From NCBI GenBank assembly GCA_025454405.1, contig JALOON010000026.1, forward strand, positions 62,001-126,000: a stretch of DNA of 64,000 bases. The letters are read 5' to 3'. Positions 51,093 through 54,174 of this stretch are shown piece after piece; the stretch's first letter is position 1; the number at the start of each line of letters is the position of its first letter. The position numbers and the translations under genes are program-made. Below the pieces are notes generated by a model. That model ran no database searches, was not told the DNA's origin, and saw nothing but the letters and a program-made list of their open reading frames with translations. Source of the DNA: Oscillatoriaceae cyanobacterium Prado104 (GTDB lineage Bacteria; Cyanobacteriota; Cyanobacteriia; Cyanobacteriales; Microcoleaceae).

Positions 51093-51283
51093 GATGAAAA
51101 CAACTGTTGCGCTCGGGCGATCGCGCATCTTTAGGTTTGCGGGCGATCGCTCATCGAACGCATCTAGACTGCCTCCTGCATCGATCGCAACCTATTGAGG
51201 TGCTGTGAAGTGGAAATATTGTATATTGGTTAATTAAGCCAACCATTGTTTTCACCTTTCACTCCTCGGAGTCGTTTTTTTCT

Positions 51284-52420
51284 ATGCTCCAAAGACTATA
51301 TGTACATAACTTCAGATGCCTGGAGAACTTTGAACTGATTCTCAAAGAGATGCCATCCTCCCTTTTAATTGGGAAAAATGGTTCAGGTAAATCAACCATC
51401 CGTGTTGTATTGGAAATCCTCCAACACATCGGTAGAGGTATTAACAGAATGCGCGACTTTGATGAAAAGCATCTCGGCCTTATCGATCCGAAAGATTTCA
51501 ATCGAGGCAGATCAGATGTTCCAATTCGATTTGAGATAGAAGTATTACTTGATAATAAACTATACAAATATATCCTGGCATTGGAATTGCCAGAAAACTT
51601 TAGAGAGCTGCGAGTTTTTGAAGAGCAACTGTTAATTGAAGGAAATCCAATTTACTCTCGCAAGGAAGCCCAAGTCACTCTTTACAACAGCCCGCGAAAT
51701 CCTGAAGCTCAGTTTCTTGTGGATTGGCATCTCGTTGCCCTTCCAGTGATTCAGGAACAATCAGAAACCGATCCGCTTCGTCTTTTCAAGACTTGGCTGG
51801 CGCGCACGATTATTTTAGCCCCGATCCCGAGCCTGATGACTGGAGAATCTAACGGGCAAACGTTAGAACCAAAACGAGACGGTTCAAATTTTGGGGAGTG
51901 GTTATCTGGGTTACTCAGTCGCTACCCTGCAGCTTACACCCAGGCTGACAGATACCTCAGAGAAGTTATGCCTGACGTTCAGGATTTTCTGAACGAACAA
52001 ATCGGGAAAGACTCTAAAAGTATGGTTGTTCGGTTTGAAGCCAAGAGTGCCAGTTTGAGTGTTGACTTTAAAGACTTATCTGATGGGGAGAAATGCTTTT
52101 TTCTGTGTGCTGTTGTCTTAGCAGCTAACAAGTATTACGGCCCGCTTTTGTGCTTTTGGGACGAACCCGATAATTATCTTTCCCTGTCAGAGGTTGGACA
52201 TTTTGTTACATCACTGCGACGCTCATTTAAGGATAGCGGTCAAATTATAGCAACCTCACATAATGAGGAAGCAATCCGAAAATTTTCCAATGAGAATACC
52301 TTTGTACTGGATAGAAAAAGTCACCTAGAGCCAACCTTAGTTAGGTTGCTGGGCGATATACCTGTAAGTGGCGATCTTGTAGATACCTTGATTCGTGGGG
52401 ATCTAAAATTATGGGAGTGA
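51284..52420 (+). CDS. AAA/ABC-type ATPase of a two-gene OLD/PARIS-like module
   Basis: 378 residues. ABC-class head of the SMC/Rad50/OLD kind (AAA_15/AAA_21): MLQRLYVHNFRCLENFEL, Walker A GKNGSGKST (30-38), a middle region without long coiled coil, a signature-like LSDGEKCFFLCAVVLA (about 265-280), Walker B LLCFWDEPDNYLS (about 288-300), and the H-loop-like IIATSHNEEAIR (about 321). Its last 10 bp overlap the next gene (ATGGGAGTGA), so the two are translationally coupled. Pairs of such an ATPase with a small TOPRIM-like partner are known in anti-phage systems (PARIS, split OLD). No membrane segments. Base composition here is more A/T-rich than in the neighbours. Confidence 0.85.
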   Translation: MLQRLYVHNFRCLENFELILKEMPSSLLIGKNGSGKSTIRVVLEILQHIGRGINRMRDFDEKHLGLIDPKDFNRGRSDVPIRFEIEVLLDNKLYKYILALELPENFRELRVFEEQLLIEGNPIYSRKEAQVTLYNSPRNPEAQFLVDWHLVALPVIQEQSETDPLRLFKTWLARTIILAPIPSLMTGESNGQTLEPKRDGSNFGEWLSGLLSRYPAAYTQADRYLREVMPDVQDFLNEQIGKDSKSMVVRFEAKSASLSVDFKDLSDGEKCFFLCAVVLAANKYYGPLLCFWDEPDNYLSLSEVGHFVTSLRRSFKDSGQIIATSHNEEAIRKFSNENTFVLDRKSHLEPTLVRLLGDIPVSGDLVDTLIRGDLKLWE

Positions 52421-52905
52421 ATAAGTATCAACCCCATGTTCTTGTGTTGCCAGAAGATGATGCTAATCGCCAAATCGCCAACGGATTCATTCTTAACTCA
52501 AGCGTGAATGAACTTGCTATTCAAGTATTACCGATTGCTAATGGCTGGGAAAAAGTTGTGGATTCTTTCAAAAAAAATCATGTTTCTGAAATGCGAAAGT
52601 TTACCCAAAGAATGATTGTATTGCTTATGGATTTTGATGAAGATTGCGAAGATAGGCTGAGTTATGTAAAGGAACAGATTCCAGATGATTTAGAAAATAG
52701 AGTATTTGTGATTGGAGTATTATCTGAACCAGAGAAGTTAAGAAGCGATCTTAGAAAAAATTTTGAAAAAATTGGAGAAACTCTTGCAAATGATTGCTCC
52801 GATAACACAAATCAATTATGGGGACATGCTCTTCTAAAACACAATAAAAATGAGCTAGATCGTATGATTATATCTATTAAACCATTTCTATTTAATAACG
52901 ATTAA
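52411..52905 (+). CDS. Putative TOPRIM-like partner of the AAA ATPase
   Basis: 164 residues, family not recognised with certainty. Two acidic motifs are spaced as in TOPRIM/DUF4276/DUF4435-type domains: LVLPEDDANRQIANGF (Glu15, Asp16, Asp17) and IVLLMDFDEDCEDR (Asp74, Asp76, Asp78). A strand-helix pattern lies between and after (VFVIGVLSEPEKLRSDL). TOPRIM folds use the first Glu and the DxD to hold Mg2+ in nucleases and topoisomerases; activity here is inference. It overlaps the ATPase gene by 10 bp and is markedly A/T-rich, which points to transfer as a cassette. Confidence 0.7.
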   Translation: MGVNKYQPHVLVLPEDDANRQIANGFILNSSVNELAIQVLPIANGWEKVVDSFKKNHVSEMRKFTQRMIVLLMDFDEDCEDRLSYVKEQIPDDLENRVFVIGVLSEPEKLRSDLRKNFEKIGETLANDCSDNTNQLWGHALLKHNKNELDRMIISIKPFLFNND

Positions 52906-53052
52906 ACTGCACTGGAACTCGCCCCGATCGAGCTGGCGTTTTGACCGAAAGATGCAATGACAGCCGAGTGGTGAGAGTAAGATAATTTATTAGAATAAAT
53001 TTATTTAGAATAGCCAATACAGGCGTTTAAAAAGATTGCAAGGAAACAGTTT

Positions 53053-53545: not shown

Positions 53546-53875
53546 TTAAGTAGGAGTTTTCGCATCTATTTCCGCATCTATTTCGGCTGCGTCCAATTCA
53601 GCTATTACTCGATCGAGGGTTTTATTCCGACTCCGATCTTTTTTCGGCTGCGAGGGGCGCGCAGCTAATTCGGCATCAAGTTCTTCCATTGTTAGGAAAG
53701 GCAACTCAAATGCCTGTTTAAAAGCTTCTATTTCTTGCAGTAAATCCTGGGCAGTTGCACCTGTAGGTATTGCAGGCTCTTTCTGATAACCGATAAGCGT
53801 TTTGTCGCGTTCGTAATAAACAATGCGGATGCAGAAACCATCTCGATCGTGAAATACACGGTAAGTCCATAACAT
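53546..53875 (-). CDS. Antitoxin-like partner of a RelE/ParE toxin
   Basis: 109 residues from the second ATG (53875), which has AGGAGG at the ideal spacing of 7; an ATG at 53881 overlaps the toxin stop. The N-terminal half (LWTYRVFHDRDGFCIRIVYYERDKTLIGYQ) is a small beta-rich domain, and the rest is an acidic, helical tail (FLTMEELDAELAARPS, LDRVIAELDAAEIDAEIDA). This class of protein regularly follows cyanobacterial RelE/ParE toxins and probably neutralises them; no classical DNA-binding antitoxin domain is seen. Translationally coupled to the toxin. Confidence 0.75.
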   Translation of the reverse strand: MLWTYRVFHDRDGFCIRIVYYERDKTLIGYQKEPAIPTGATAQDLLQEIEAFKQAFELPFLTMEELDAELAARPSQPKKDRSRNKTLDRVIAELDAAEIDAEIDAKTPT

Positions 53876-53877
53876 AT

Positions 53878-54174
53878 TCATTCCTCCTGTTGACCGCGAA
53901 AAAAAACTGTATTGTTGGGTTTTTCACCAATTCGTTCGATCGCCACGACACTGACTTGTTCTTCTACGTTGTAATATACCCGATACACGCCAATACGCAA
54001 TTCCCAATCAGCAATTTTTGTACCGTCATCTCGACAAGGTTTTCGATTCATTGTCACGACGGTTGGCTGGTAGGTCAGGTTATTTTTGATTCCATCTACA
54101 ATGATATTTCGCTCCCGTCTGTTGAACCACATAATATCGTCTTCAGCTTTTGCTGTTAATTCAATAATATACAT
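53878..54174 (-). CDS. RelE/ParE family toxin
   Basis: 98 residues with the RelE/ParE layout: MYIIELTAKAEDDIMWFNRRERNIIVDGIKNNL (two N-terminal helices), PCRDDGTKIADWELRIGVYRVYYNVEEQVSVVAIERIGEK (the beta sheet with the conserved Arg in WELRIGVYRVYY). RelE toxins cleave ribosome-bound mRNA, ParE toxins poison gyrase; which applies here is not decidable by eye. Toxin-first order, with the partner gene overlapping by an ATGA-type junction (53878-53881). Confidence 0.88.
   Translation of the reverse strand: MYIIELTAKAEDDIMWFNRRERNIIVDGIKNNLTYQPTVVTMNRKPCRDDGTKIADWELRIGVYRVYYNVEEQVSVVAIERIGEKPNNTVFFRGQQEE

Follow-up and report, generated by a model that had tools for sequence, protein, structure and literature searches.

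The analysed window, a stretch of 64,000 nucleotides from a contig of Oscillatoriaceae cyanobacterium Prado104, harbours on its forward strand two genes that encode an ATPase of 378 residues and a partner protein of 164 residues. The lengths of both proteins and the 10 bp overlap of their genes, as described in the first-pass annotation, are confirmed by the coordinates of the open reading frames. The features of the locus are listed below, with positions referring to the window and supporting evidence in brackets.

51247..51283, + strand: leader with a GGAG ribosome-binding-like stretch 5' of the ATPase start (upstream alignment, weak)
51284..52420, + strand: ABC-class (OLD/AAA_21 type) ATPase, 378 aa (ORF; Pfam AAA_21; near full-length homologues)
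51371..51397, + strand: Walker A, residues 30-38 (G30, N32, G33, G35, K36, S37 and T38 invariant in alignment A6)
52076..52090, + strand: ABC signature LSDGE, residues 265-269 (L265, S266, D267 and G268 invariant in A6)
52151..52171, + strand: Walker B, residues 290-296 (D293, E294 and P295 invariant in A6)
52253..52264, + strand: H-loop, residues 324-327 (S325 and H326 invariant in A6)
52411..52905, + strand: probable TOPRIM-like partner (family B), 164 aa (ORF; homologues or remnants in 44 genomes; dN/dS)
52453..52458, + strand: E15-D16, candidate for the TOPRIM glutamate motif, closing strand 1 of the low-confidence models (no exception in 24 rows of alignment A1 or in 33 rows of A5)
52543..52548, + strand: G45-W46, candidate TOPRIM glycine (G45 invariant; strand 37-43 before G45 in one model)
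52630..52638, + strand: D74-F75-D76, candidate for the TOPRIM DxD motif, closing strand 3 of the low-confidence models (D74 without exception; D76 in 34 of 35 rows)

The partner gene is A/T-rich, as had been noted initially, with a GC content of 33.5% compared to 45.9% in the window, where none of 127 segments of 500 bp is lower. The approximately 35 bases preceding the ATPase (51247-51283) show partial likeness across differing insertion sites, with few columns conserved in an upstream alignment of 27 loci; this leader is a possible regulatory element and may travel together with the ATPase/partner unit.

The ATPase is recognized by the Pfam family AAA_21 with 60.7 bits (cut-off 27), while AAA_15 and SMC_N also score above their cut-offs, and its close homologues share 67-95% identity over nearly the full length. 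Walker A, ABC signature, Walker B and H-loop are all intact in the window protein, and their invariant positions were defined in an alignment of eight rows combining close and distant relatives (A6). Since the approximately 226 residues between Walker A and the signature leave no room for a long coiled coil, the protein conforms in its Pfam assignment, motifs and spacing to the ABC-class ATPase without such an insertion that had been proposed at the outset. The best PADLOC models are AbiLi (E 1.9e-19), HEC-01A (E 3.1e-19) and AriA (E 8.9e-17), matches which assign the protein only to a broad group.

Conservation and genomic distribution of the pair

In comparisons of the window with nine relatives, the ATPase has dN/dS values of 0.08-0.12 and the partner of 0.19-0.28, and the respective ranges for all twelve pairs are 0.08-0.17 and 0.19-0.28. 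Both genes are thus under purifying selection, with values for the partner about twice those of the ATPase, and the effector side therefore appears to be the faster-evolving one. With selection acting on each of them and their conservation as a pair, the two open reading frames exceed what would be expected by chance and are genuine genes.

Of 386 cyanobacterial genomes, 26 contain the partner or a remnant of it, two of 28 initial candidates (G166 and G192) having been removed as they turned out to encode TPR-repeat proteins; a profile search of 291 genomes from the class also detected it in 26. Pooled, the two samples comprise 44 distinct genomes with the partner or a remnant, including that of the window. 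In 40 of these 44, ATPase DNA is located within 1.5 kb of the partner, and the co-occurrence of the two homologues, which had been set beforehand as a check of the proposed pairing, was thus borne out. If full length is defined by a single alignment spanning more than 90% of the query, the partner is nearly complete in 35 of the 44 genomes and both genes are in 30, the latter being an upper figure for intact pairs because the ATPase of one genome (G438) contains an internal stop. In the remaining 14 genomes, five copies touch the edge of a contig or locus and nine located away from edges look truncated or incomplete; remnants containing the ATPase only and the partner only both occur. The distance matrices of the two proteins, with each ORF taken up to its first stop, correlate with a Mantel r of 0.76 that was not reached in any of 2000 permutations, and we thus conclude that ATPase and partner travel together. 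A scan of genome contigs with a single protein identified three more relatives, in records of Komarekiella, Scytonema and Rhizonema.

In the genus of the window, the unit is flanked by an amine-oxidase-like gene and a gene encoding 160 residues. It is found at the amine-oxidase site in 4 of 28 loci from the same genus, whereas in two others the 160-residue gene directly follows the oxidase (with gaps of 26 bp in L172 and 127 bp in L190) and the other 22 contain neither of them within the approximately 1.5 kb that were fetched. Among 17 of these 22 loci that were compared, the sequence behind the oxidase differs between many, and in two genomes (G195 and G203) unit and oxidase reside on separate contigs. 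The spot behind the amine-oxidase-like gene (51093-53052; loci L166-L193) thus varies within the genus and constitutes a small insertion hotspot. We have also considered whether discordant synonymous divergence would signal transfer specific to the unit, as dS between the window and three relatives at the same site is 0.22-0.27 for the ATPase and 0.80-1.19 for the oxidase. The discordance is not particular to the unit, since the other flanking gene shows values of 0.28-0.49 and the order is reversed between G592 and G354, where the oxidase (0.07) is less diverged than the ATPase (0.12).

Copies were also found on plasmids. An intact pair is located on the Kovacikia plasmid pA between ORFs that by eye resemble transposases, and a conjugative plasmid from Dolichospermum encodes the ATPase followed by a partner that is cut off after a few codons. 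Besides the ATPase and the nearly deleted partner, the latter plasmid (pDol_DET69_01, L072) carries two annotated reverse-transcriptase genes and a plasmid-borne dnaN. Such locations would be expected for a selfish unit akin to toxin-antitoxin systems, which maintains itself on plasmids and at variable sites and for which defence against phages is secondary or absent, and the toxin-antitoxin behaviour described for AAA/TOPRIM_OLD pairs in the excerpted text of PMC10440598 points in the same direction. Against this stand the small number of plasmid records matched by the ATPase (2 of 72,556) and the occurrence of remnants that retain one of the two genes, and we thus consider this explanation quite improbable.

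A toxin-antitoxin pair had initially been noted within 1 kb of the unit, but it does not belong to it. The respective region (53546-54174) contains two small overlapping genes on the opposite strand, with another gene intervening between them and the unit. The presumed toxin scores 15.4 bits with ParE_toxin, below the cut-off of 23, the second gene, encoding 111 residues, has no match, and neither gene was matched in any of five same-site regions from relatives.

To characterize the surroundings more broadly, we compared the seven nearest genes of each of 20 regions (139 genes, one region being of the distant type described below, with its own partner counted as neighbour) with controls taken at hand-chosen offsets from other parts of contigs belonging to the same genomes (139 of 140 genes, omitting one protein of 1806 residues). 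At E-values up to 1e-15, 58 PADLOC families match the neighbours compared to 24 for controls, a number inflated by many models that match single proteins: most of the families listed (25 of 58) correspond to one protein, with many GajB models falling on the same one. The neighbour matches listed include IetA (two proteins), a type IV restriction enzyme and mad3 (one), and those of the controls mad3 (five), mad2 (three) and several methyltransferases. We thus see no clear enrichment of defence genes in the 139 neighbours of 20 regions relative to the 139 controls. This speaks against a defence reading and would be compatible with a housekeeping or DNA-maintenance ATPase working with an accessory subunit, as would the mostly ordinary metabolic Pfam families of the neighbours (among 25 of 193 listed for the same 139 genes) and the archaeal OLD-class protein Cran1, which according to the excerpted text of PMC12796447 functions in the cell cycle and not as a defence protein. 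A housekeeping function is nevertheless unlikely in view of the patchy distribution of the unit, with the partner or a remnant present in no more than 26 of 386 and 26 of 291 genomes sampled, truncation or incompleteness unrelated to an edge in at least nine of 44 copies, occupancy of this site in 4 of 28 loci of the same genus, and copies residing on plasmids.

Conserved residues and presumed fold of the partner

The window partner contains the residues Glu-Asp-Asp at positions 15-17 and D-F-D-E-D at positions 74-78, which had been described as EDD and DxDxD motifs. In 35 distinct rows obtained by combining alignments A1 and A5 (the latter not containing L007 and L012, which are both part of A1), no exception occurs at E15, D16, G45 or D74, and D76 is replaced in a single row, by Val in L007. 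Both motifs are thus present, but D17 and D78 vary and the conserved signature is E-D ... DxD.

The order of these residues suggests a TOPRIM fold. In the TOPRIM domain of Retron-Eco2, the layout consists of a Glu, a Gly and a DxD motif (described in the excerpted text of PMC12405507), and the same arrangement of strands and motifs is found in low-confidence models of the partner. Two AlphaFold models obtained with four partner sequences (that of the window and L030-L032) are of poor quality, with pLDDT values of 48.8 and 49.3. In both, E15 follows strand 1 and strand 3 ends with the DxD motif; only the second also shows a strand 2 (37-43) ahead of G45. An acidic residue that in Eco2 contributes to a second metal site four positions past the Glu is not conserved among partner rows, where the equivalent position 19 is mostly N or H and D in three rows. 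Foldseek and VIA-align comparisons list generic Rossmann-like folds and no TOPRIM among the matches listed, an absence that does not speak against a TOPRIM fold. A search of PDB sequences with the A5 profile yielded nothing significant. The TOPRIM-bearing Retron Ec67 protein comes third and fourth in its list (E 0.39-0.40) and is outscored by two unrelated chains, a MetRS-related protein (0.012) and RadC (0.13). In the weak alignment with Ec67, D74 and D76 fall on D460 and D462, the metal ligands of its DxD motif (as given in the excerpted text of PMC12405507), whereas E15 is off the catalytic Glu374.

As anticipated in the first-pass annotation, the partner has no name: neither Pfam, NCBIfam nor PADLOC contains a model that matches convincingly, either for the window protein or, in Pfam and PADLOC, for 33 aligned rows. 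In PADLOC, a model of a type II restriction enzyme leads the weak matches (window protein E 0.0043; 2 of 33 rows, the best at 7e-4), and HEC-01B is matched weakly by 4 of 33 rows (best E 0.0049) and not by the window protein. The Pfam family OLD-like_TOPRIM_1 is touched by one of 33 rows (E 0.081). At E-values up to 1, no match of the window protein or the 33 rows was found to RloB in Pfam or to AbiLii in PADLOC, and the same holds in Pfam for DUF4435, a domain contained in AriB, which is larger than the window partner. We did not recognize a description of the family in the literature searched, which covered few subscription papers. Viral contigs contain no relative detectable with the partner alignment or the ATPase, and neither the partner nor the distant ATPase L070 found a match in a phage collection.

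Taken together, the order of the E, G and DxD motifs supports the initial proposal of a TOPRIM-like protein, and we consider this fold probable on sequence evidence of moderate strength, the structure models having a pLDDT of about 49. Both this estimate and our overall confidence were lowered on two grounds: HEC-01B scores worse than the restriction-enzyme model, and three rows carry a D at position 19. Alternatively, the partner might be another α/β protein that works with the ATPase, such as an adaptor, an inhibitor, a small-molecule enzyme or a nuclease resembling restriction enzymes. The Rossmann-like folds in the structure comparison, the restriction-enzyme model as best weak PADLOC match and the lack of a convincing match to any TOPRIM model would be in line with this alternative. 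The invariant E, G and D and the nearly invariant second D in the order found in TOPRIM domains argue against it, as does a residue-level match to partners of related ATPases described below, and we regard it as somewhat unlikely.

Related pairs of ATPases and TOPRIM-type proteins

At four places of the class sample, we identified distant ATPases that are 25-29% identical to the window ATPase over nearly the full length and located directly upstream of a partner of 174-178 residues containing the motifs ILCED ... VIDAD or FIDAD. The genes overlap in L068, L069 and L071, and with the start chosen for this analysis those of L070 abut. This unnamed cyanobacterial dyad (L068-L071, L074, L076) resembles the window pair in the location of the partner directly 3' of the ATPase and in its ED...DxD motifs, although the two partners are only about 19% identical in a profile alignment. 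The distant partner matches models of HEC-01B, PDC-M31B and DUF3226 weakly. In hhalign, family B aligns weakly but collinearly with the distant partners (P 0.0067) and also matches DUF3226 (P 0.0052), both with probabilities below 3%, compared to P 0.37-0.95 for reversed or shuffled versions of these two targets, and there is no signal with DUF4276 or HEC-01B.

When the family B profile was aligned to single sequences, E15, D74 and D76 fell on E, D and D in all six distant partners, which are near relatives and effectively represent two cases. Among 278 background proteins, all three residues were aligned in one, itself such a distant partner included by accident, and both aspartates alone in 11; the top score in this test went to a background protein that is unrelated and lacks the motif. 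The three acidic residues were aligned together in none of 35 sequences from DUF3226, DUF4276 and HEC-01B, since their local matches mostly span the DxD region only. TOPRIM-type families nevertheless score above 126 length-matched background proteins, with rank test p-values of 0.0002 for DUF3226, 0.003 for HEC-01B, 0.008 and 0.04 for DUF4276 and 0.013 for the distant partners, which are optimistic as rows are related.

A similar gene order is found around these families in cyanobacteria. In 34 of 35 DUF3226, DUF4276 and HEC-01B loci (taken from 62 fetched in three sets: 16 of 19, 6 of 13, these being HEC-01B, and 13 of 30), an ORF of 359-491 residues is located directly upstream, and 33 of these 34 match the ATPase of the window or of L070 at E-values no higher than 0.02; the search used single sequences, for which E-values are lenient, and some of the matches may be short. 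The arrangement of an ATPase followed by its partner is therefore a general one. The genome of the window (G000) contains, outside of it, seven matches to DUF4276 at E up to 0.001, five of them above the cut-off, two to DUF3226 and one to HEC-01B that coincides with one of these places, and thus possibly carries several further ATPase/TOPRIM-like dyads. On the Oceanisphaera plasmid pA (L142:4001-5915), an ATPase of the broad group, 24.7% identical to that of L070, and a protein of 252 residues without a Pfam match are located between brxC and pglX in a BREX locus; BREX-associated OLD-ABC/TOPRIM dyads are on record in the excerpted text of PMC12839542.

Proposed function and comparison with known systems

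The window pair displays general features of ABC-ATPase/TOPRIM dyads, with a complete set of ATPase motifs and a partner adjoining the ATPase in 40 of 44 genomes. We thus lean towards the view that it constitutes a compact, hitherto unnamed two-gene ABC-ATPase/TOPRIM unit of the dyad type known from AbiL, PARIS and HEC-01. From the initial proposal of a compact defence pair of this kind, the ABC/OLD-type ATPase, the pairing and the TOPRIM motif order were retained and the link to toxin-antitoxin genes was dropped. A role in defence is, in our assessment, slightly more likely than not.

In the mechanism we envisage, the overlap of the genes would couple the translation of ATPase and partner. 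The ATPase would act as sensor and switch that keeps the small TOPRIM-like partner, a candidate nuclease, inactive. A phage or another trigger might alter the state of the ATPase and so release or activate the partner, which would then cut nucleic acid and stop the growth of the infected cell. By analogy with AriB, RNA such as tRNA would be the likelier target. This model of sensing, restraint and release draws on the behaviour of AAA/TOPRIM_OLD pairs and AbiL (excerpted text of PMC10440598) and of PARIS (excerpted text of PMC12839542). In a bolder reading, which we find doubtful, the partner would found a distinct family of very small TOPRIM-like effectors that serve cyanobacteria in an independent abortive-infection switch of two genes outside of defence islands, with target and chemistry unlike those of AriB and AbiLii. 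The remodelled metal site assumed in this reading, where an invariant Glu-Asp would replace Glu-Gly and the second acidic residue four positions on is not conserved, is similarly tentative.

Dyads of this kind are easily missed, as the ATPase is named only 'AAA family ATPase' in an annotated plasmid record and no family model accepts the partner. A name for the partner family would provide an annotation marker in cyanobacteria, and its small size would make it a convenient minimal model for the restraint of a TOPRIM effector by an ABC ATPase.

Among known systems, AbiL is similarly composed of two genes, the ATPase AbiLi, which provides the best PADLOC match of the window ATPase, and the TOPRIM-type effector AbiLii (RloB/TOPRIM_OLD), which behave as antitoxin and toxin (excerpted text of PMC10440598). 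In contrast to AbiLii, which belongs to the RloB family, the window partner shows no match to RloB in Pfam at E-values up to 1. In the PADLOC candidate HEC-01, HEC-01A matches the window ATPase and all six HEC-01B loci examined contain an ATPase-like ORF directly upstream, whereas the HEC-01B models, with 197-213 positions, are longer than the 164-residue partner and yield no convincing score. PARIS combines a split OLD-type ATPase with a TOPRIM protein (excerpted text of PMC10568477); PMC12839542 relates that its ATPase reacts to a phage protein and that tRNA is cut by AriB. Its AriA model matches the window ATPase (E 8.9e-17), but the window partner does not share the DUF4435 match of AriB. 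Finally, class 1 OLD proteins and Gabija follow the same logic of an ABC ATPase combined with a TOPRIM domain (excerpted text of PMC10568477). In these proteins the TOPRIM domain is fused to the ATPase, whereas in the window the ATPase models cover residues up to about 335 of an ORF that ends at residue 378, and the candidate TOPRIM is encoded by a separate gene.
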